Below, piece after piece: positions 8,001 to 30,750 of a stretch of 38,288 nucleotides of DNA. The first letter of the stretch is position 1. Each line of letters begins with the position of its first letter. Under the pieces are notes generated by a model. That model worked only from the letters and a program-made list of their open reading frames with translations, made no database searches and was not told the origin of the DNA. Source of the stretch: Chloroflexota bacterium (lineage in GTDB: Bacteria > Chloroflexota > Chloroflexia > QHBQ01); assembly GCA_025355955.1 (NCBI GenBank), contig JANXYP010000375.1, forward strand, positions 1 to 38,288. The letters run 5' to 3'. A program made the translations under genes and the position numbers.

Positions 8001-9331
8001 AACAAAAAGAGCGCCCCATCTTTCGCAGGGGCGCTCTCGTATACATTACTAGACACTAATCTCATTGCTTCCGCCAATTCATCCACCATCCGCCGCTGGG
8101 CCAGCATCTCGCGCACCGTAATCGGCGGGCGAAACCAACCCGCCAGTTCCGCATCGCTGATGATGCGGGTACGCTGGATGGCGCGGCGGCTGGCGAGGAT
8201 GGGGCTGAGGCCGCGCAGCGCGTCGCGCCGCCCGCGAAGCAGCGCAGGGTCGCGCTTGAGCAGGCCATAGGCCACCGCCATCGCCTCGTAGCGCAGGATG
8301 TAGGGCAGCCATTGGCGCAACAGGCTGGTGGGCAGGTTCTTGGCAATAGTCCAGATGCGGTTGCGAGCCAGGTGATAGCTCTTGAATGGCGAACCCTGCA
8401 CCCCAGTCGCTGAATAGTGGTGCAGCACGGCCGCGGCTGGCGCATATAGGCAGCGCCAGCCTTGCAACCGCGCCCGCCAGGCCAGATCCACATCCTCCAG
8501 GTAGGCAAAGTAGCGGGCATCGAAGCCGCCCAGTTCTGTCAGCAGCCGCCGCGAGTAGAGCGCCGCGCCCGCAGTCGGGCCAAATATCTCGTATGGCGCA
8601 ATGCCTGGTCGGTAGGGCCGCCCTGCCAGCCGCTCCAGCGCCAGCCCGTCGCGGCGCAACTCCAGCCCAGCGGCGGCAATCGTATCCGGTCGGCTGGTGA
8701 ACAACAGCGTGGCGGCAACCATACCGACTTCTCCGAGTGCTGAGTGCTGAGTGCTGAGTGCTGAGTTAAGGTTTGAGCGGGGCTGCGCGTCATCCCCTCC
8801 CCCACCGGGGGAGGCTGGGAGAGGGTGCGAGTCGCGCAGCCCCAACCCTCCCCCAGCCCCTCCCACCGGGAGGGGAGAGTCGCGCAGCCCCAACCCCCCC
8901 CCAGCCCCTCCCACTGGGAGGGGAGAGTCGCGCAGCCCAGACCCACCCCCAGCCCCTCCCGGTGGGAGGGGAGAATGAGCAAGCGCCGCCACCATCTGGG
9001 CCAGCCAGTCGGGATTGGCGATGGTGTCGTTGTTGATGGTGGCGATGTAGTTGCCGTTAGCTTCAGCGAAGGCCAGATTGTTGCCGCCGCTAAAGCCGAG
9101 GTTGGTGGGGCTGGGTAGCACCCGCACCTGGCCGGGCGCGAAGCCGAGGCGGGCGAACTGCGTCGGGTCGGTTAGATAATCCACCGAACCATCGGTCGAG
9201 CCGTTCTCCACAATCAGTAGCTCGAAGTTGCGATAAGTCTGCGCCCCAAGCGCGGCGAGGCAGGCGGGCAGATAGGCTAGCCCGTTCCAGTTCAGGGTGA
9301 CAATGCTGACGCTGGGGCTAGCGGATGGCAT
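7973..9331 (-). CDS. Family 2 glycosyltransferase with an in-frame repeat insertion
   Basis: GT-A fold glycosyltransferase of the rhamnosyltransferase-like GT2 group, likely adding a sugar to a surface polymer. The start at 9331 (MPSASPSVSIVTLNWNGL) overlaps the kinase stop by 14 bases and has GGGAAGGGA just upstream. Visible motifs are VSIVTLNWNG 7-16, ENGSTDGS 42-49, LGFSGGNN 78-85, TINNDT 98-103 (metal-binding position) and FAYLEDVDLAWRARLQG 275-291. Residues about 119-200 are a foreign-looking insert: three 16-residue units (SPLPVGGAGGGLGLRD type) and a heptamer-encoded NSALSTQHSAL, placed between the acceptor-loop region and EVGMVAATLLF. The C-terminal 23 residues are encoded by the terminator hairpin and a repeat, so the native 3' end is probably altered. 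Activity with such an insert is unproven. Confidence 0.85.
   Translation of the reverse strand: MPSASPSVSIVTLNWNGLAYLPACLAALGAQTYRNFELLIVENGSTDGSVDYLTDPTQFARLGFAPGQVRVLPSPTNLGFSGGNNLAFAEANGNYIATINNDTIANPDWLAQMVAALAHSPLPPGGAGGGSGLRDSPLPVGGAGGGLGLRDSPLPVGGAGGGLGLRDSHPLPASPGGGGDDAQPRSNLNSALSTQHSALGEVGMVAATLLFTSRPDTIAAAGLELRRDGLALERLAGRPYRPGIAPYEIFGPTAGAALYSRRLLTELGGFDARYFAYLEDVDLAWRARLQGWRCLYAPAAAVLHHYSATGVQGSPFKSYHLARNRIWTIAKNLPTSLLRQWLPYILRYEAMAVAYGLLKRDPALLRGRRDALRGLSPILASRRAIQRTRIISDAELAGWFRPPITVREMLAQRRMVDELAEAMRLVSSNVYESAPAKDGALFLLYQLVLVTL
8004..8037 (-). terminator. Rho-independent terminator of the glycosyltransferase gene
   Basis: On the - strand, AGAGCGCCCC (8037-8028), a 10-base loop, then GGGGCGCTCT (8017-8008) and a run of T (8008-8004). 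The coding frame above it has no stop codon before this hairpin and runs through it to 7973. Confidence 0.8.
8736..8763. repeat. Heptamer array GAGTGCT x4 inside the glycosyltransferase gene
   Basis: Four perfect units plus a partial. Read on the coding (-) strand it gives the cyclic peptide STQHSAL with no stops in any frame; the other strand contains TGA. One unit gained or lost would shift the frame downstream. Confidence 0.9.
8831..8974. repeat. 48-bp tandem repeat x3 inside the glycosyltransferase gene
   Basis: Units start at 8831, 8879 and 8927. Each carries a CCCCTCCC...GGGAGGGG hairpin and encodes 16 residues (SPLPVGGAGGGLGLRD type) on the - strand. The period is a multiple of three, so the frame is kept. 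A related, more diverged unit lies at about 8795-8825. Confidence 0.9.
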
Positions 9332-11831
9332 GGAGTCCCTTCCCACCGAAGTAATAGAGTATGCTATTAGCGGATACTGGCCCATCAAGGGGAATATCAT
9401 TCAATTCTATTCCTTTAGTTGCCACCCCGTTTCGCTGATTCAAGACCAACAATGATGTGCCGTGCCCTTCCCCCCCGTTCGATACCACATATAGATTGTT
9501 CCCCACTAGCAGCGGGTCGCCAACCAAGTTATCGTTAGCCGCGTAGGTCCAACGTTCAAACCCGCTCGCGCCATCGCGTGCGGTTACGCCATCCATTCTG
9601 CTATCGAGAGTAATGAACAGGGTACTTTGGCTGAAAGCCAGCCCGCCTGCGCTCCCCCCTATCGCAGCCTGCCATATCAAGCTGCCATCGCTGGAGTTGT
9701 AGGCATAGGCATACTCCCCTTGCCATGAGGCCAAGTAGACCGTGTCAGATACAGCAAGCAACAGGCAGGGTGGACTGATGGTAGTAGGGAGTGCTTCGCT
9801 CTGCCATTTCACCGCGCCGTCGGCGGGGTTGAGCGCAGTCAATTTGCCGCCCAGCACAATATAGAGACTGGCAGCATCGGGACTAAGCAGCAAACGGCTC
9901 TGCACCGTACTGCTTATCTGCCACATTTGCTTGCCGATCGCCGCATCGAGCGCGGTGAGCGTCAACGGCGTGGTGGCGTATAGCACACCATTGGCGATTA
10001 CCGGCGCGTAGGGGCTGGGGCTACCCAGATTGTAACGCCAGGTGGCGCGGCCCTGGGCGGCAGGGTCGCTAGCATATAGCTGGCCGCCGCCGTCTTGCAG
10101 GTAGAGGAAGGTAGCCTTGTCCGATTTCGCGTAAGCGAGGTGATTCATCGCCACTGCCCCGGCGGGCAGATCGAACGACCAGGACGGTTGGCCGCTGGCA
10201 TCGAGATGGAGGACTCTGCTGCCCCCTCCTTGCGCGTTCTGACCGGGTGCGATCAGATAGTAGCCCTCGTTGGCGATGATCAGGTTGCTGGGCGCATAAT
10301 TAGGCGCATTGATCGAGTACGGGTAGCTCCACAGCGGGCTGCCCGCAATGGCAAGGTCATTTTCGTGGCTGAAGTTAGTACCGCCCCAATCGTAGCCGCT
10401 CATCCACCACTGCCCGCGCGGGCTGCGCGAGTTGAGCGCAGCATCGGTCACGCCTGGCGGCGCGGCGACGGTAGCGGGATATAGCGTATCCGGCGGGGTT
10501 GCGTGGCTAGCTGTGCCGATAAACGGTAGGCTGAATGGCAGCAATCCAAAGTACGAGCCGCCCACGATCAGCCCGACCAGCAGAAGCGCAAGGACGATTG
10601 TTACAAGTTTTGAGTTTTGAGTTTTGAGTTTTGAGTTACTGGCTGGCAGAGCATTGGCTGGACGTGGCGAACTCGCTGGAGGGGCGGGGTTGGTAGGCGC
10701 GACGCTCACCTTGCGCTCGGTGGGCAGCGGCGCTGGGGTAGCTAGGTAACGCTCATCCAGTCCGGGGATGGCGCGGGTCGGCTGCGGCGTAGTTACTCCC
10801 CTCCCGCCGGGAGGGGCTGGGGGCGGGTCGGCGGTGCGCGACGCAGTCTCCCTCCCCGCCTCCCCCTTTGGCGGAGGGGTTTGCTGCGGGGTGGGTTGCG
10901 CTTGGCTACTCCCCCTCCCCGCCTCCCCCTTTGGCGGAGGGGTTTGGGCGGGTTGTTGCCCAGCGAGAACGCGCAAAGTCTGCGGCGGGGTAGGGTGAGC
11001 GGGTTTGGGGTAGAGCTTCGCCAGGTCGCTACGCACTGCCACCATGGTCTGGTAACGGGCTGCAGGCTCGAGCAGGGTCATGCGTGCCAGCATCGCTGCC
11101 AGTGGGGGCGGGATGGCGGGGTTGAGGGTCAGCGCGGGCGGCAGGTTGAAGATATGCTCGTCGGGGTTGATATTGGTGAGCAGTTCGTAGATAGTCACGC
11201 CCAGGCTGTAAATATCGCTGCGCTCATCGGTCTGGCTGCGGCCATACTGCTCCGGCGGCGCGTAGCCAGGAGTGCCGAGCGCACGAGTGTCGGCGGCGCT
11301 ATCCTGCTTGAAGAAGCGGGCGATGCCGAAGTCAATCAGCTTGACGATGCCCGCCTGTCGCGTGACCATCACGTTGCCGGGCTTGAGGTCACGGAAGATG
11401 ATCGGTGGTTCCAAGCCGTGCAGGTAGACTAGCACATCGCACAATTGCCAGAACCAATCCAGCACGCTGCTGACCGGCAGCGGCCCGTCGGCATCATCCA
11501 ACGCCTTCAGCAAAGTCTTGCCATCCACGAAGTCCATCACCAGGTAGTAGTTGTCACCCTCGGCGAAGAAGTTAACCACCTGGGTGAGATAGGGATGATT
11601 GAGCGACATCAGCAACCGCACCTCGCTGCGGAAGGCGGCGGCGTTCTCCTCGCGGTCTAGCGGGTCGGCAAGGCCGGAGACGCTGATCTCCTTGACCGCC
11701 AGCGTAACCGGCATCCCTGGCACGGCGCGGTTATCCTGCACCTTGTAGACGCTACCTGCCCCACCCTGCCCCAGCTTGGCTAGTAGGGTGTAACGGTTGC
11801 CATCCAGTTGTTGTCCCAGTGTCAGTGGCAT
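9318..11831 (-). CDS. Membrane receptor Ser/Thr protein kinase with extracellular beta-propeller (PQQ-like) domain
   Basis: Hanks-type kinase, 837 residues. Glycine loop GQGGAGSV 21-28, ATP lysine in LAVKEI (K47), catalytic loop FRDLKPGN 146-153 (Phe replaces the usual His; D148 and K150 kept), DFG 167-169, and GTPGYAPPEQYG 186-197 in the activation segment. A low-complexity juxtamembrane region (about 280-410) contains two TPPPKGEAGR repeats and a heptamer-encoded NSKLKTQNSKL. One transmembrane helix lies at about 411-429. The outer part has repeated WxY/WxxxL strands (LWSYPY, SWSFDLP, ATWRYNLG, MWQISS, VKWQSE, LIWQAAIGG, ERWTYAAND), a PQQ-like propeller that probably senses an extracellular cue. 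No good ribosome-binding site is visible. It overlaps the glycosyltransferase gene by 14 bases. The FHA protein encoded upstream is a plausible phosphothreonine reader. Confidence 0.9.
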   Translation of the reverse strand: MPLTLGQQLDGNRYTLLAKLGQGGAGSVYKVQDNRAVPGMPVTLAVKEISVSGLADPLDREENAAAFRSEVRLLMSLNHPYLTQVVNFFAEGDNYYLVMDFVDGKTLLKALDDADGPLPVSSVLDWFWQLCDVLVYLHGLEPPIIFRDLKPGNVMVTRQAGIVKLIDFGIARFFKQDSAADTRALGTPGYAPPEQYGRSQTDERSDIYSLGVTIYELLTNINPDEHIFNLPPALTLNPAIPPPLAAMLARMTLLEPAARYQTMVAVRSDLAKLYPKPAHPTPPQTLRVLAGQQPAQTPPPKGEAGRGSSQAQPTPQQTPPPKGEAGRETASRTADPPPAPPGGRGVTTPQPTRAIPGLDERYLATPAPLPTERKVSVAPTNPAPPASSPRPANALPASNSKLKTQNSKLVTIVLALLLVGLIVGGSYFGLLPFSLPFIGTASHATPPDTLYPATVAAPPGVTDAALNSRSPRGQWWMSGYDWGGTNFSHENDLAIAGSPLWSYPYSINAPNYAPSNLIIANEGYYLIAPGQNAQGGGSRVLHLDASGQPSWSFDLPAGAVAMNHLAYAKSDKATFLYLQDGGGQLYASDPAAQGRATWRYNLGSPSPYAPVIANGVLYATTPLTLTALDAAIGKQMWQISSTVQSRLLLSPDAASLYIVLGGKLTALNPADGAVKWQSEALPTTISPPCLLLAVSDTVYLASWQGEYAYAYNSSDGSLIWQAAIGGSAGGLAFSQSTLFITLDSRMDGVTARDGASGFERWTYAANDNLVGDPLLVGNNLYVVSNGGEGHGTSLLVLNQRNGVATKGIELNDIPLDGPVSANSILYYFGGKGLHAIR
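10612..10632. repeat. Heptamer array GAGTTTT x3 inside the kinase gene
   Basis: Three perfect units with partial units on both sides (10605-10637). On the coding strand it reads as NSKLKTQ-type peptide just before the transmembrane helix. Confidence 0.9.
10852..10945. repeat. C-rich hairpin repeat pair inside the kinase gene
   Basis: Two near-identical units beginning CTCCCCGCC start at 10852 and 10915, 63 bases (21 codons) apart. Each contains a CCTCC...GGAGG hairpin and encodes TPPPKGEAGR on the - strand. A related CCCCTCCC-type hairpin precedes them at about 10798-10816. Confidence 0.85.
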
Positions 11832-11889
11832 TTGAATCGTGGCCCTCGCCCTAACCTTCTCCCTCGCCGGGGAGAGGGTATCTGTGTTG

Positions 11890-11944
11890 GGGCGAACCGT
11901 TGTACGCCCTCAGCGTGCCTGTAGTGGCAAACCGTTGTTCGCCC
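11890..11944. repeat. Two degraded GGGCGAAC stem-loop copies
   Basis: One copy at 11890-11909 has a single arm mismatch (GTACGCCC) and one at about 11926-11944 has a damaged left arm. Together they fill much of the 113-base spacer between the kinase and the GT-C-like gene. No promoter was recognised there. Confidence 0.65.
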
Positions 11945-14900
11945 TCAGCGCACCAGTTGATACAAATAAACATCGTCGGCGGCGGCGTGCCAGGCAATGT
12001 CGGGGCGCACATCGAACAGCCCCACATCGCCATCCCAGAGCGAATGCTGGCGGAAAATCTGGATGAACTTCAGGCGCGGATTGGCAGCTAGCGCGTCGCG
12101 AGTTTCCGGCCAGCTCCGCCCGTAGCACCACTTGTCTACCGGCGAACCCACCTGACACGAACTGACTGCGATGTACTGGACGTGCCAGCCCTTCAACACA
12201 GCGAGCGCGGCATCCTGGGGAAAGAGGTTTTGCAGCGTATCCTCGTTGAGTTGGTAGTCGTTGGGCATGAAGGTCTCATAACCATAGGCAATCGGCTTGC
12301 CATGGTAGACGCTGGCCCACATCGCGGGGCCATCGCGGGTGGCACGGTCGAACGGCATCATTGCCACCACTGGCTGGCCGGGCAATGCGGCGAGGTAGGC
12401 ATCGAGCGGCTGCTGCTCCACGCGAGTGAAACCCCAGCTATAGGGCGTGGCCCAGAAGTCGGCCAGCACCAGCACGACCAGCGCCACAACGATAGTATAA
12501 CGATAGGGAGCAAGACGCGGGCGGGCCAGCATCCAGGCCAGACCCAGCGCGGCGATAACGTAGAATGCGAAGATGACGATTAGCCCGAACCGCGCCCATG
12601 CCCGAATCGAGCTGAACAGCGGCACGAACTTGTATAGCAGCAGCCCCGGCAGCGGCACCTGCCAGCCTGCACTCCGCAGCGCCGGATCGAAGCGGGCCAG
12701 TTCGCCCGATAGGTCGTACTCCAGCCCGAACGACAGCACCACTGCCAGCAATGCCATGCCCAGGTATAGGCTGAAGGGGAAGCCAGCCCGCTTGCCGCGC
12801 AACTTCCAACCCGCCCATATCCCCAGCCCAATCAGCAGGTACATCGCCGCGCCCGGCCACAGGTTGTACTCGGTCAGGTTCAGGTTGGCGGTGTGTGCCG
12901 TCTTGAAGGCATCGCCCCAGATAGGGTGCAACTGGCTGGGGATAAAGTAGTCGCTCAATAGCGCGCTGCTGCCGTTCGCCGCCTTGATGCTATACGCCAG
13001 GCTGTTGCCACTCCGCAGCGCCAAATAGGGTATGGCGAAGGGGGCAACCAGTGCGGCGGTGACGACGACAAAGGCGGCCAGAGTTTTGAGTTTTGAGTTT
13101 TGAGTTTTGAGTTGGAGGTTGCTAGTCTTAGGGGTGGGCGGTGGCCCGCCCTGCTGCCCTTCAACCTGGCTCGATGCGGGCATGAGCGGCACACCTTGCG
13201 GCACATTGCCACGCAGTTGCCACCAGCGCACCACGATGTAGAGGGCGACGAACAGGCCGATAATCGCGGCGTAGTACCAGGCTTCCCAGCAGCAGAGTGC
13301 GAAGAACAACCCCGCCAAGGCACCGTCCTGCCAGCGCCGCCCGCGCAGCATTTTTTCGAGGAAAAGGAAGGTGAGTGGCAGCCACTGCGTTCCCATCATC
13401 TGCAAATGGCCGAGCATATGGTTGAGGCGATATGGCACAAAGGCGAAGGCAAGGCCAATGAGCAGGGCGATGATGGTCAAGTTTTGAGTTTTGAGTTTTG
13501 AGTTTTGAATTACTATGTCTGTAGGGGCGAACCGTTGTTCGCCCTGCCCCGCCTCGTCTGTAGGGGCGAACCGCTGTTCGCCCTGCTGCCCACCCTCGTC
13601 CGTAGGGGCGAACCGTTGTTCGCCCTGCCCCGCCTCGTCTGTAGGGGCGAACCGTTGTTCACCCTGCCCCGCCTCGTCTGTAGCGGCGAACCGTTGTTCG
13701 CCCTGCTGCCCACCCTCGTCTGTAGGGGCGAACCGCTGTTCGCCCTGCTGCCCTGCCTGACCCCTCCCATATGGGGGGAGGGCAGGGGTGAGGGGAGGCT
13801 CTAGCAAGTATTTCACCAGCAGATACATCCCCCAGCCAGAGAGGACGAAGGAGAGGAAGACGAGAAAGTTGTAGCTGACGATGGGGCCGAGCGTGGCGGT
13901 GATGGGGATGGTAAGCAGGGTGTTGGCGGGGGTGAACTCTCCCTGACCCAGGTTGAAGCCGATTGGATAGTAGACGTTGGGGTTGAAGACCAGCGAGGAG
14001 CCGGGTGGCGGGTTGCCGAAGATGGCGTGGCTGACCCACCAGATCTTGTACATGAAGTTGAAATTGTCCATCGGCCAGCCGGGCAGGCGGCTGCCGAAGC
14101 TGAGGACGTAGGGCCAGGTGAAGATAATCGTGGCTAGCAGGTAGAAGCATGGCACCGCTAGCACGCGGGCAGCCGGACTCTGCCACAACCGCCGCGCCTT
14201 CAGCCAGCCTGCCGCCCGCCCCAGCATTGCTTCGACACTACGGCGGTTGAGCAACACTGCGACTGGCAGCAGCACAACCAATCCCCCCGCCAGCCAGGGC
14301 AGCAGGGCAGCGGGCGAGGCAATGAAGAAGAATACACTGACTAGAATGAGAGCGACGAGAGGCAGGACTAGGGCCAGTAGCTTGGCGACGGCCCTCTCCC
14401 GGCCTCCCCCGGTGGGGGAGAAGTCTTGCTCCCCTCCCGGCGGGAGGGGCTGGGGGTGGGGCGTTATCTCCCCTCCCACTGGGAGGGGCTGGGGGTGGGG
14501 TGTTATCTCCCCTCCCACTGGGAGGGGCTGGGGGTGGGTAATAGCCCAGCCTACTGCGTACAGACAAATCGCCACCAACAGCCAAAGCAGCGCAATCAGC
14601 AGCGACGGCCAGCGCAGCCCCAACGGGCCAGGGGCTGACGCGACCTTCATGCCATAGAAGATGACCCCCAGTTCGCGGTAATCCTTGTCCGAGGGGTAGA
14701 AGGTTTGCTGGGTGACGAGTTCAAGGCTGAGGTCGGGCAGGATGCTGGCATCGTGGTAGGCGAAAGTGTAGGTAAGCGGCCCGTTCGTCGCGGTGATGGT
14801 GGCGGCGGGCTGGCCGTCGATGATGACCGCGATGGGGCTAGGTTTGAAGCTGGCGGGGCGGCTACCGTCGAGGTAGAGGGTGATTTGCTCGTCATCGCTA

Positions 14901-15139
14901 AGGCGGGTGGTGTTGATGCGCGATACTGCTTTGCTCCAGCGATAATCGCGGCTGGGGTTATGCTCCGGGGGGTAGAAGTTGCCCAGCGCGGTTTCCTGCT
15001 TGCCCGCGCTTACGTTGAGCGTGGCTGGCGCTTGCAGCACGGCAACCAACAAGGCGAGCGCGACGATGAGATAAAAGATGAAAGATGAAAGATGAAAGAT
15101 GAAAGAGGCAGGCTTTGAGTTTTGCAATGTACTCTCCAT
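11945..15139 (-). CDS. Large multi-pass membrane protein, GT-C glycosyltransferase-like, with three repeat-derived loops
   Basis: A 1064-residue integral membrane protein with an N-terminal helix (about 15-35), an extracytoplasmic beta-rich segment (40-170), many further helices and a soluble C-terminus (about 890-1064). The core has WPMDNFNFMYKIWW (355-368), NPNVYYPIGFNLGQGEFTPANTL and HMLGHLQMMGTQWLPLTF, resembling large GT-C-type (lipid-linked sugar donor) transferases; the exact reaction is unknown. Three linkers between helices derive from repeats: residues 201-245 (ITPHPQPLPVGGE units), 448-553 (six GEQRFAPTDE units plus NSKLKTQ) and 655-686 (NSKLKTQ). Residues 12-21 in the first helix are also heptamer-encoded. 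The ATG at 15139 lies inside the first unit of a 60-bp tandem repeat and has no clear ribosome-binding site, so the start is uncertain. It probably works with the glycosyltransferase and kinase encoded downstream. Confidence 0.75.
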   Translation of the reverse strand: MESTLQNSKPASFIFHLSSFIFYLIVALALLVAVLQAPATLNVSAGKQETALGNFYPPEHNPSRDYRWSKAVSRINTTRLSDDEQITLYLDGSRPASFKPSPIAVIIDGQPAATITATNGPLTYTFAYHDASILPDLSLELVTQQTFYPSDKDYRELGVIFYGMKVASAPGPLGLRWPSLLIALLWLLVAICLYAVGWAITHPQPLPVGGEITPHPQPLPVGGEITPHPQPLPPGGEQDFSPTGGGRERAVAKLLALVLPLVALILVSVFFFIASPAALLPWLAGGLVVLLPVAVLLNRRSVEAMLGRAAGWLKARRLWQSPAARVLAVPCFYLLATIIFTWPYVLSFGSRLPGWPMDNFNFMYKIWWVSHAIFGNPPPGSSLVFNPNVYYPIGFNLGQGEFTPANTLLTIPITATLGPIVSYNFLVFLSFVLSGWGMYLLVKYLLEPPLTPALPPYGRGQAGQQGEQRFAPTDEGGQQGEQRFAATDEAGQGEQRFAPTDEAGQGEQRFAPTDEGGQQGEQRFAPTDEAGQGEQRFAPTDIVIQNSKLKTQNLTIIALLIGLAFAFVPYRLNHMLGHLQMMGTQWLPLTFLFLEKMLRGRRWQDGALAGLFFALCCWEAWYYAAIIGLFVALYIVVRWWQLRGNVPQGVPLMPASSQVEGQQGGPPPTPKTSNLQLKTQNSKLKTLAAFVVVTAALVAPFAIPYLALRSGNSLAYSIKAANGSSALLSDYFIPSQLHPIWGDAFKTAHTANLNLTEYNLWPGAAMYLLIGLGIWAGWKLRGKRAGFPFSLYLGMALLAVVLSFGLEYDLSGELARFDPALRSAGWQVPLPGLLLYKFVPLFSSIRAWARFGLIVIFAFYVIAALGLAWMLARPRLAPYRYTIVVALVVLVLADFWATPYSWGFTRVEQQPLDAYLAALPGQPVVAMMPFDRATRDGPAMWASVYHGKPIAYGYETFMPNDYQLNEDTLQNLFPQDAALAVLKGWHVQYIAVSSCQVGSPVDKWCYGRSWPETRDALAANPRLKFIQIFRQHSLWDGDVGLFDVRPDIAWHAAADDVYLYQLVR
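13081..13108. repeat. Heptamer array GAGTTTT x4 inside the GT-C-like gene
   Basis: Four perfect units plus a partial. On the coding strand it reads LKTQNSKLKT (residues about 677-686). Confidence 0.9.
13486..13506. repeat. Heptamer array GAGTTTT x3 inside the GT-C-like gene
   Basis: Three perfect units with degenerate flanks (13479-13509). It directly abuts the six-copy stem-loop array at 13517 and encodes IQNSKLKTQN. Confidence 0.9.
13517..13757. repeat. Six tandem GGGCGAAC stem-loop units inside the GT-C-like gene
   Basis: Units start at 13517, 13556, 13598, 13637, 13676 and 13718, with periods of 39, 42, 39, 39 and 42 bp. Each is a copy of the dispersed stem-loop and encodes GEQRFA(P/A)TDE on the - strand, so a hairpin repeat has expanded as a translated, frame-preserving array. 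Two units have a point change in the stem. Confidence 0.95.
14429..14538. repeat. 39-bp tandem repeat x3 inside the GT-C-like gene
   Basis: Units start at 14429, 14468 and 14507. Each holds a CCCCTCCC...GGGAGGGG hairpin and encodes the 13-residue ITPHPQPLPVGGE on the - strand. The period keeps the frame. Confidence 0.92.
15077..15104. repeat. Heptamer array GATGAAA x4 at the 5' end of the GT-C-like gene
   Basis: Four perfect units. On the coding strand they give FIFHLSSF-type hydrophobic residues that form part of the first membrane helix. The opposite strand contains TGA. Confidence 0.9.
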
Positions 15140-15330
15140 CTTTAATCTCGGTAGTCAGTAGGGGCGAACCGTTGTTCGCCCTGCGAATAGCTTCTCCATC
15201 TTTTATCTCGGTAGTTAGTAGGGGCGAACCGTTGTTCGCCCTGCGAATAGCTTCTCCATCTTTAATCTCGGTTGTCAGTAGGGGCGAACCGCTTGTTCGC
15301 CCCGCGAACAGCTTCTCCATCTTTTATCTT
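15134..15330. repeat. 60-bp tandem repeat x3 spanning the GT-C-like start codon
   Basis: Units start at 15134, 15194 and 15254 (60, 60 and 61 bp), with a partial fourth from 15315. Each contains the GGGCGAAC stem-loop and, on the - strand, AAGATGGAG; the unit nearest the gene supplies its ATG at 15139. The rest of the 374-base spacer (to 15513) holds decayed copies (near 15350 and 15443) and no gene. An open frame over 14958-15320 reads only repeat sequence. Confidence 0.9.
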
Positions 15331-18003: not shown

Positions 18004-20085
18004 GTGAAAAGAGTGCCGATCAAGATATTGCCTTCCGACATTGCGATCAAGATTGCCGCAGGCGAGGTGGTGGAGCGGCCATCAGCGGTGGTCAAGGAGT
18101 TGCTCGACAACGCGGTTGACGCGGGCGCGCACAACGTCCGCGTGGAGGTGCGCGGCGGCGGGCAGCAGCAGATCAGGGTGATGGATGATGGCAGCGGCAT
18201 CCCCGCCGACGAACTGGAAACCGCCTTCCAGCGCCACGCCACCTCCAAAATTGGCGAACTGGCCGACCTGTTCAAGATTAACACGCTCGGCTTTCGCGGC
18301 GAGGCGCTGCCTTCGATTGCCAGCGTAAGCAAGACCAGCATGGTAAGCCGCACCGCTGCCGATACGAATGGCACCGAGGTCATGTTCGAGGGCGGCGTGC
18401 TGCGTAAGCGCGAACCGCGTGGTACACCGCGCGGCACCATCGTCACGGTCAGCGACCTGTTCTACAACGTGCCAGCGCGACAGAAGTTCCTCAAGTCGGT
18501 GGCGGCGGAGAGCGGGCAGATCAGCAGCATTGTCAGCCAGTATGCCCTCGCCTACCCTGCGGTTCGCTTCAGCCTCACCCTCGATGGGCGCACTGCGTTT
18601 CAGTCCAGCGGCAGCGGCGACTTGCTCGATGCCATCACCCAGGTGTATGGCGCGGACATAAGCAAGGCGATGCTGCCGGTGGGCAAGCTGCGCCTAGCGC
18701 AGGCCGACAGCGCGGAGCAGCCCACCAGCGAGGCCGATGCCGAGACCGGCGAGATGGCGATCAGCGAAGATGACCTGTGGCAGATCGGCGAGAATGGCGT
18801 TGCCGAGCGTCGCGCCCGCTACAGCGTGGATAAGAAGAGCGTCCCGATGCCCAAAGTGTGGGGCTATGTCAGTCAGCCGAGCTTGACGCGGGCCAACCGC
18901 CAGTATATCAACCTCTTCGTCAACCGCCGCACTGTGCAGAGCCGCACCCTCGGCTACGCGGTGGATGAGGCGTATCACACTCTGCTGATGAGCGGGCGGC
19001 ACCCGGTTGCGGTGCTAAACATCGAACTCGACCCCGCCAACGTGGATGCCAACGTTCATCCCCAGAAGGTAGAGGTGAAGTTCGCCGACGAGCGCGGCGC
19101 GTTCATCGCGGTGCAGCGGGCGGTGCGCGAGGCGCTGGCCGCTTACACCACCGTGCCGAACATGAACCCAGCCAAACGCGAGGCCGAGCAGGATGGCGCG
19201 GATCAGGGTGAGCTACGCTACGGCCCCACCTTCGAGGCGCGGCCTATGCCGCTGCCGCCCACCGCTGAAGGCGACTCTCTACCCGCCCGCCCTCCGATCA
19301 ACCTGGAAGCGGCAGCGGCAACCTTGCGCGACGGTGAGAGCGACACGGCGGGCGCGGAGATCGACTACAGCAACATGACCCCCGATCAGATCTTCGACCT
19401 GCTGGGCAGCAGCAGCGCAGGGCGGCAACCAGCGGTGCCGCAAATGGCCCGCATCGAGGAGGACAAGACGGTTGCCAGCCGCCGCAACCTGCCACCGCTG
19501 CGGGTAGTCGGGCAAATCAGCGAAACCTACGTCATCGCCGAGGGGCCGGACGGGATGTACATGGTAGACCAGCACGCCGCCCACGAGCGGGTGATGTACG
19601 AGCGCATCCTCGCCGAGTTGACCCAGCCGAACGGCAAGCGGGCGGAGGTTGCCACCCAACTGCTGCTCACCCCGCTACCGCTGGAGCTTACCCTCCGCCA
19701 GCGGGCCGAGGTCGAGTCGCGGCTAGACGTGCTGGCCGAACTTGGCTTCGAGATGGCGGCAGAAGGCGAACGCACCTTGCTGGTCAAGTCTGTACCCGCA
19801 ATGTTCAAGCAGCGTCACGAGTCCGGCATGGGTGGTGCGCTGGTGGAGATGATCGACGACCTGCTCAACCAACGGCGGATAGACCTCTGGCGCGACACCC
19901 TCGCGATCACCCTGGCTTGCCACAGTGCCATCCGCGCTGGGCAGAGCCTGCCGTTGGAAGAGATGCGGCGGCTGATCGAGCAGCTAGAGCAGTGTCGGAT
20001 GCCTCGCGCCTGCGCCCACGGTCGCCCCACTATGCTGCTGCTCAGTCAGAGCCAGCTAGAGCGTGAGTTCAAGCGCACGGTATAG
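18004..20085 (+). CDS. mutL: DNA mismatch repair protein MutL (endonuclease type)
   Basis: Mismatch-repair matchmaker, 693 residues, starting at GTG 18004; a second GTG at 18013 is possible. The N-terminal GHKL ATPase motifs are intact: AAGEVVERPSAVVKELLDNAVDAGA (catalytic E32, N36), DDGSGIP from 61, and NTLGFRGEAL 93-102. A long acidic linker (about 225-260 and 385-480) leads to the C-terminal dimerisation/endonuclease domain with DQHAAHERVMYE 522-533 (the DQHA-x2-E-x4-E metal motif), ACHSAIRAG 638-646 and CAHGRP 670-675, all marks of nicking-competent MutL as found where MutH is absent. No mutS is in the window. It is transcribed alone, divergent from the zinc-finger gene. Confidence 0.97.
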   Translation: MKRVPIKILPSDIAIKIAAGEVVERPSAVVKELLDNAVDAGAHNVRVEVRGGGQQQIRVMDDGSGIPADELETAFQRHATSKIGELADLFKINTLGFRGEALPSIASVSKTSMVSRTAADTNGTEVMFEGGVLRKREPRGTPRGTIVTVSDLFYNVPARQKFLKSVAAESGQISSIVSQYALAYPAVRFSLTLDGRTAFQSSGSGDLLDAITQVYGADISKAMLPVGKLRLAQADSAEQPTSEADAETGEMAISEDDLWQIGENGVAERRARYSVDKKSVPMPKVWGYVSQPSLTRANRQYINLFVNRRTVQSRTLGYAVDEAYHTLLMSGRHPVAVLNIELDPANVDANVHPQKVEVKFADERGAFIAVQRAVREALAAYTTVPNMNPAKREAEQDGADQGELRYGPTFEARPMPLPPTAEGDSLPARPPINLEAAAATLRDGESDTAGAEIDYSNMTPDQIFDLLGSSSAGRQPAVPQMARIEEDKTVASRRNLPPLRVVGQISETYVIAEGPDGMYMVDQHAAHERVMYERILAELTQPNGKRAEVATQLLLTPLPLELTLRQRAEVESRLDVLAELGFEMAAEGERTLLVKSVPAMFKQRHESGMGGALVEMIDDLLNQRRIDLWRDTLAITLACHSAIRAGQSLPLEEMRRLIEQLEQCRMPRACAHGRPTMLLLSQSQLEREFKRTV

Positions 20086-20544
20086 CAAAAAGCATAGCAA
20101 AAAGCCTCTCCCCGGGGGGGAGAGGTTTGGTGAGGGGAGAAGCTCACCCTACACCAACGCTGGGGTTGGCTAGAGGCAAAAAGCCCCCAGCGGGGGTTTA
20201 GGGGAGAAGCTCACCCTACACCGATGCTGGGGTTGGCTAGAGGCAAAAAGCCCCCAGCGGGGGTTGGGGGGAGAAAGCTCGCCTTGCACTAATGCTGCGG
20301 GTGGCAGGCTAACGAACTTACCGCAGCATTATAGCGCTTCACGATTTCTCCCCAACCCCCGCTGGGGGCTTAGTTAATCAACATGGGGGAGAAATTCTTG
20401 CCTTGCACCAATGCTAGGGTTGGCTAGAGGCAAAAAGCCCCCAGCGGGGGTTGGGGGAGAAATCTCGCCCTACACCAACGCTGGGGGCTTAGTTGACCAA
20501 CCTGGGTAATGACTCCAGCTTTGCCGTTTTCGGCTACGTCCAGC
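20086..20544. repeat. Cluster of GCCCCCAGCGGGGG hairpin repeats between convergent genes
   Basis: No gene. Four copies of a unit with GGCTAGAGGCAAAAAG or related sequence and the CCCCC-AGC-GGGGG hairpin are seen at about 20174-20200, 20237-20265, 20347-20372 (inverted) and 20423-20450, joined by repeated CTCACCCTACACCAACGCTGGGG segments. It separates convergent mutL and the 20545 gene and could stop transcription from both sides, but there are few T runs. Confidence 0.75.
20105..20128 (+). terminator. Possible terminator of mutL
   Basis: A 9-bp perfect stem CCTCTCCCC / GGGGAGAGG with a GGG loop, followed by only TTT. It starts 20 bases after the mutL stop. It may equally be a member of the C/G-rich repeat family. 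Confidence 0.45.
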
Positions 20545-30600: not shown

Positions 30601-30750
30601 CCAGGGGGTTTAGGGGTAAGCCCCAGCTGCTCCAACTTATTTATGCTGCTAGTAAGCACCGCCCTGTACCCTGCCGCGCTGCCAAATATGCTGCCCAACC
30701 CCAACGTTACTGCCGGTCAGCAGCTGGGGGCTTACCCCCCAGACCCCCGG
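30601..30750. repeat. Inverted-repeat (MITE-like) element
   Basis: The left arm 30601-30633 and right arm 30718-30750 are imperfect inverted copies (AGCAGCTGGGG(G)CTTACCCC core), enclosing about 84 bases. The arm sequence is related to the left-edge element (114-145). The whole non-coding stretch 30521-30906 has no other supported feature. Short open frames across it are not convincing. Confidence 0.55.

Follow-up and report, generated by a model that had tools for sequence, protein, structure and literature searches.

Tandem arrays of 7 bp units dispersed over the genome are known in cyanobacteria as short tandem heptamer repeats (STRR), and the Rickettsia palindromic elements (RPE) lie in frame within many unrelated proteins, essential ones among them. 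The GTAG REPs are short, non-autonomous palindromic elements in which a GTAG tag adjoins a stem of 5–13 bp with a loop of 2–20 nt; they are present in many dispersed, mainly intergenic copies, and they flank the genes of RAYT (HUH-tyrosine) transposases, which are believed to mobilize them (Di Nocera et al. 2013, PMC3733652). Some GTAG REPs are translated inside genes, including clusters coding for 43–82 aa, in Thauera and R. conorii, and RPE-4 and RPE-6 have been equated with intragenic REPs (PMC3733652). That REPs and RPEs insert into proteins is already established.

We describe here a repeat of this kind in the draft genome (5.15 Mb in 420 contigs, 84% complete) of an uncultured member of the phylum Chloroflexota, with emphasis on a window, i.e. 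the whole 38,288 bp stretch analysed, in which six copies lie in tandem within one gene. The repeat shares with the GTAG REPs an unpaired GTAG tag, an 8 bp stem and a 4 nt loop, as well as hundreds of mostly intergenic copies, and the genome contains RAYT-like genes that are flanked by sister GTAG REPs; what it has in addition is an oriented heptamer partner, the six-copy in-frame array, and its occurrence in a Chloroflexota lineage. Head-to-tail neighbors dominate (152 of the 189 pairs lying within 120 bp of each other in our sample of this genome), whereas they are absent or rare in most genomes (PMC3733652), and head-to-head or tail-to-tail dimers are usual in the described GTAG families. 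The likeness to RPEs is one of behavior, as the sequences are unrelated, and the present repeat differs from them in its link to heptamer arrays and to GTAG REPs with RAYT genes, and in its tandem amplification. Compared with the cyanobacterial STRRs, those arrays that are near REPs are on the GTAG side with a fixed strand, and 32 of 138 heptamer arrays are inside genes. In-frame amplification, recurrence in essential genes, and the oriented pairing with heptamers look to be new. We found no report for the phylum Chloroflexota of non-coding mobile DNA turned into protein sequence, and here a single genome holds intergenic copies, RAYT genes, and coding copies at several stages of amplification.

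A six-copy hairpin array within a membrane protein gene

The six hairpins, each a GTAG followed by GGGCGAAC-CGYT-GTTCGCCC, are in a single frame of a gene for a 1064-residue protein (Table 1). The tags, or the places corresponding to them, are at 13521, 13560, 13602, 13641, 13680 and 13722, and the start-to-start distances of 39, 42, 39, 39 and 42 bp that the first-pass annotation had given are recovered both by TRF and by the repeat families. The predicted product is likewise as it had been read, with units of GEQRFAPTDE (peptide type GEQRFAPTDEAGQ), five of the six being identical and one having a single proline to alanine change (GEQRFAATDE). The RNA fold of one hairpin copy has a z-score of −4.0, and the core hairpin is free of stop codons in all three frames of the coding strand. 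TRF additionally detects a 120 bp period (1.9 copies, 95% match), and positions 13517–13628 and 13637–13748 are 96% identical, so that the present array corresponds to a trimer occurring twice.

Table 1. Repeats and inserted segments in and around the host gene (positions in the window).
Feature	Position	Strand	Source
Degenerate REPs, two copies, host gene 3′ end	11877..11945	+	Repeat family D1
Host gene for a multi-span membrane protein of 1064 aa with GT-C-like architecture	11945..15139	-	ORF
(GAGTTTT)n heptamer array of second insert, coding LKTQNSKLKT	13081..13113	+	
Sister GTAG-REP subfamily hairpin (GGGCGGTGGCCCGCCC) of second insert, coding GQQGGPPPTPK	13128..13151	+	
Inserted stretch, residues 452-557, missing in five full-length homologues	13469..13786	-	
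Heptamer array (AGTTTTG)n coding QNSKLKTQN, GTAG side of the six REPs	13480..13508	+	
Six tandem GTAG-REP hairpins	13517..13748	hairpin +, coded on -	TRF, repeat family D1
First trimer of the array	13517..13636	+	TRF period 120; family D2, 96%
Second trimer of the array	13637..13756	+	TRF, repeat families
GC-rich hairpin coding EPPLTPALPPYGRG, non-tag side of the array	13757..13802	-	Read from sequence
GC-rich hairpin repeat of 39 bp, three copies, coding HPQPLPVGGEITP (residues about 200-237)	14429..14538	+	
(AAAGATG)n heptamer array, N-terminal FIFHLSSFIF when read from the upstream start	15073..15106	+	
Three 60-bp repeats, one REP each, non-coding, just upstream of the host gene	15133..15329	+	

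Neither the host protein nor one insert-free homologue matched a Pfam family, and the host protein fits no recognized GT-C family profile; it is called GT-C-like from its multi-span architecture. A separate gene call places the gene at 11945–15040, and the start could be downstream of that of the open reading frame, for example at 15040. An Rfam search of the window returned nothing.

Five full-length homologues (L032, L034, L035, L036 and L041) align throughout the protein and have nothing opposite residues 452–557, and homologues from the same class match both flanks of the array with a short loop in between, in BLAST segments of 22–43% identity. These homologues come from genomes related at class level at the closest, and with 27–43% identity they are too distant to reveal an empty site at the level of bases; a search of the genome collection with the C-terminal part of the host protein found no relative. 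Because about 106 residues are missing from the homologues, the loop is an insertion. This is as the first-pass annotation had foreseen, in that it placed the array in a loop between membrane helices and named as support a contiguous helix-loop-helix without the array residues in relatives; the relatives do have this arrangement, with a short loop. A repeat-free orthologue with the same loop, which it held would mark ancestral coding sequence, is not present among the aligned homologues. Its extent for the insert needs adjusting, the stretch being real with boundaries at residues 452–557 rather than 448–553, and the content is broader than the six hairpins that it listed. Three layers make up the insert, which besides the six hairpins comprises the GC-rich hairpin (EPPLTPALPPYGRG) and a (TTTTGAG)n array coding for QNSKLKTQN. 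Two further repeat-made inserts, at residues 200–251 and about 640–690, are also absent from the full-length homologues; the former consists of three 39 bp GC-rich hairpins (THPQPLPVGGEI) and the latter of a hairpin from another subfamily together with a heptamer array (GQQGGPPPTPK...LKTQNSKLKT).

Genomic copies of the hairpin and RAYT genes

Scanning the draft genome with up to two mismatches yields 754 matches, and none with the reversed control pattern, which speaks against a chance origin. Each tag position is retained in about 82–85% of 303 non-coding copies. The REP is carried by one of 158 genomes of the class, namely this one, with seven others having one two-mismatch match each, at chance level. 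The density of GTAG-REP-like hairpins is about 440 per Mb (in about 1.37 Mb of the genome, sampled in stretches). In a 737 kb sample that was blind to coding hits, 116 of 119 copies are not internal to genes; as 73% of this sequence is coding, the three internal copies show that insertions into genes are mostly purged or avoided.

Two RAYT-like Y1 transposase genes are present, and both have tandem arrays on their flanks, of a different sister GTAG-REP subfamily in each case. The flanking REP of the first (L069, ~840–1400) is GTAGGGGCGCATGGCATACGCCC, inverted on the two sides, and that of the second (L068, 1432–1998) is GTAGGGGCGGGCGGTGGCCCGCCC, the same subfamily as the hairpin at 13128–13151 inside the host gene. 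No RAYT gene directly flanked by the GAACCGTTGTTC subfamily was found in the 84% complete genome, and two copies of that subfamily are located about 1 kb downstream of one of the RAYT genes. In structure and distribution the hairpin fits the GTAG class of REPs, and by analogy with the described families it may be moved by a RAYT.

Pairing of REPs with heptamer arrays

Where a heptamer array is located within 150 bp of a GTAG REP, it is on the tag side in all 12 coding cases and in 36 of the 45 that are non-coding. Where a tag-side heptamer is stop-free on one strand only, that strand invariably runs opposite to the REP (12/12 coding, 29/29 non-coding). Among pairs within 400 bp the tag-side counts decay with distance (35, 23, 13, 8 ... 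per 50 bp), and those on the non-tag side do not (4, 3, 6, 3 ... per 50 bp), with the qualification that the counts are not fully independent, some pairs sharing a REP or an array. As the pairing is also seen outside genes it is a property at the DNA level, and it accounts for the heptamer peptide that follows the REP peptide in proteins. In a phylum sample of 301 genomes, a pattern built on one heptamer only found the arrangement in this genome alone.

One reading, which we advance tentatively and to which we give somewhat less than an even chance, is that the REP and the heptamer array belong to a single mobile unit with two oriented parts, (heptamer)n – short spacer – GTAG – hairpin, with interchangeable heptamers (TTTTGAG, TGCTGAG, TTGTAGA, TTGCAGA and others). 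Such a unit would spread as DNA in this Chloroflexota lineage, and the lack of stop codons in both hairpin and heptamer on one and the same strand would have allowed it to enter many proteins, essential ones included. If general, the orientation would offer a clue to how RAYT-mobilized REPs insert or to how heptamer arrays originate. Paired examples include window positions 13480–13544 and 13081–13151, L150 16268–16347 and L195 12981–13063, and at least ten heptamer sequences take part in the pairing. The GC-rich hairpin has no side preference (20 versus 18), and was on this ground rejected as a possible third component.

The same peptides in other proteins

Within 1.37 Mb there are 53 GTAG-REP-like matches internal to 32 called genes, although with so loose a pattern some of these will be chance. 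Clear cases are MnmG (three copies, followed by NSKLKTQNSKL), ArgS, HisH, MobA, a LivM-LivG fusion, an RMKL-like methyltransferase, an S8 protease, and DUF2298 and PMT-like proteins, and independent arrays of two to three copies are present in other genes. ArgS, MnmG and HisH all score above the NCBIfam equivalog cut-offs. The MnmG insert (residues 580–654) maps to one position of E. coli MnmG and faces 3–18 residues in 27 relatives. Judged by MnmG, whose best named relatives are Dehalococcoidia MAGs (61%), the organism belongs to the Chloroflexota. The ArgS insert (~601–645) lies between the catalytic and anticodon-binding domains. Taken together, the ArgS and MnmG inserts have nothing opposite them in solved structures and relatives. 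In ArgS and MnmG, as in the host gene, an in-frame repeat is found that homologues do not have, which is what characterizes an intragenic REP.

The ArgS gene is the sole PF00750 locus found in the draft genome, and the MnmG gene the sole near-full-length GIDA locus. Because the same peptides lie inside these two enzymes, each found once, the repeats are likely to be translated, unless the enzymes are dead or spare copies reside in the missing 16% of the genome. These two inserts make the question of expression and tolerance directly testable.

HisH (L131 13874–14734, plus strand) has a REP/heptamer insert inside the domain and a further REP/heptamer stretch at its N-terminus. At L075 8699–10585 (minus strand), a LivM-like permease and a LivG-like ATPase share a frame, and the linker between them consists of three different REP peptides plus a heptamer array; this gene fusion was possibly created through intergenic repeats. 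Two further genes in the window contain in-frame heptamer arrays (8735–8766, SALSTQHSAL, and 10606–10637, NSKLKTQNSKL), which adjoin GC-rich repeat stretches.

Reading frame and amplification

Both periods of the array are multiples of three, as had been pointed out, and so are 13 of 13 spacings in the coding arrays of eight genes, compared with 44 of 137 elsewhere; several of the coding arrays were found with a same-frame GEQRFAPT query, a partly biased sampling by which the p value of 4e-7 overstates the bias. An open frame alone does not force such spacing, because the core hairpin is stop-free in all three frames of the coding strand. The blind sample, with three internal copies, is by itself too thin to display a frame bias. 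In stop-free open reading frames of at least 400 aa, our count gives nine uses of the GEQRFAPT frame, five of ANNGSPLQ and none of RTTVRPYR. The excess of synonymous changes is weak (7:6 versus 113:326, p = 0.048), and loses significance once the loop site is removed.

The spacers of the window array have no other occurrence in 1.37 Mb of the genome, so that the array probably grew in place and did not arrive ready-made. Its growth was likely by slippage or unequal recombination, and we infer from the sequence structure that a trimer formed first and was then doubled.

Origin of the array

We favor the explanation, with a probability of roughly 0.8, that the array is an in-frame intragenic expansion of a GTAG-type REP with its heptamer partner, tolerated in a GT-C-like protein. 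A REP/heptamer unit would have entered a short loop that connects two membrane helices, presumably on the cytoplasmic side; the insertion itself is shown by the alignment. Since the hairpin is stop-free in three frames, an insertion of suitable length yields a readable hydrophilic peptide. The hairpin would then have multiplied in place by tandem duplication, a duplication of ~120 bp being the last and doubling the trimer, with only the frame-keeping steps surviving. Such peptides would have reached other proteins, among them ArgS, MnmG and HisH, by the same process. Most likely the loop is a tolerated passenger and not an adaptation, and the organism seems to tolerate protein loops built from non-coding repeats. 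The first-pass annotation had spoken of a non-coding repeat being used as a linker and then amplified; insertion and amplification both stand, and 'used' is too strong for what is probably a tolerated insert. It recognized neither the known class to which the array belongs, intragenic GTAG REPs, nor the recurrence in many genes of this genome.

Decay of the host gene would provide another account, with repeats piling up free of selection and the frame left open by chance. The presence of four repeat-made stretches in one gene is in keeping with this, as is the lack of stops in the repeats on the coding strand, but the gene runs for 1064 codons with no stop or frameshift and has a high coding score, and the same inserts are found in ArgS and MnmG, each found once; we regard decay as unlikely. 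Rather less probable is an adaptive loop, in which the usefulness of a longer loop or of a binding repeat drove the amplification of the acidic, hydrophilic GEQRFAPTDE. The same peptide occurs in unrelated proteins at unrelated sites and the synonymous bias is weak, which weigh against it more than the six copies with five identical peptides, or the greater use of the hydrophilic frame in long open reading frames (9, 5, 0), speak for it; the copies are also too young for informative divergence.

It is marginally less probable again that the copy number, or the whole array, is an artefact of assembly. The six-copy count does come from the assembly, a draft in 420 contigs and 84% complete, and 39–42 bp repeats are difficult for short reads. 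However, the copies have private substitutions, both flanks belong to one homologous protein, and independent arrays of two to three copies are present in other genes.

Other repeats in the window

Two further sets of repeats lie elsewhere in the window. A 73 bp direct repeat at 91–163 and 255–327 (99% identity, 164 bp apart) has a related 31 bp copy at 30718, and a 67 bp tandem repeat with the core GCTAGAGGCAAAAAGCCCCCAGCGGGGGT is present at 20131–20305 and 20388–20486, just after a gene that ends at 20085.
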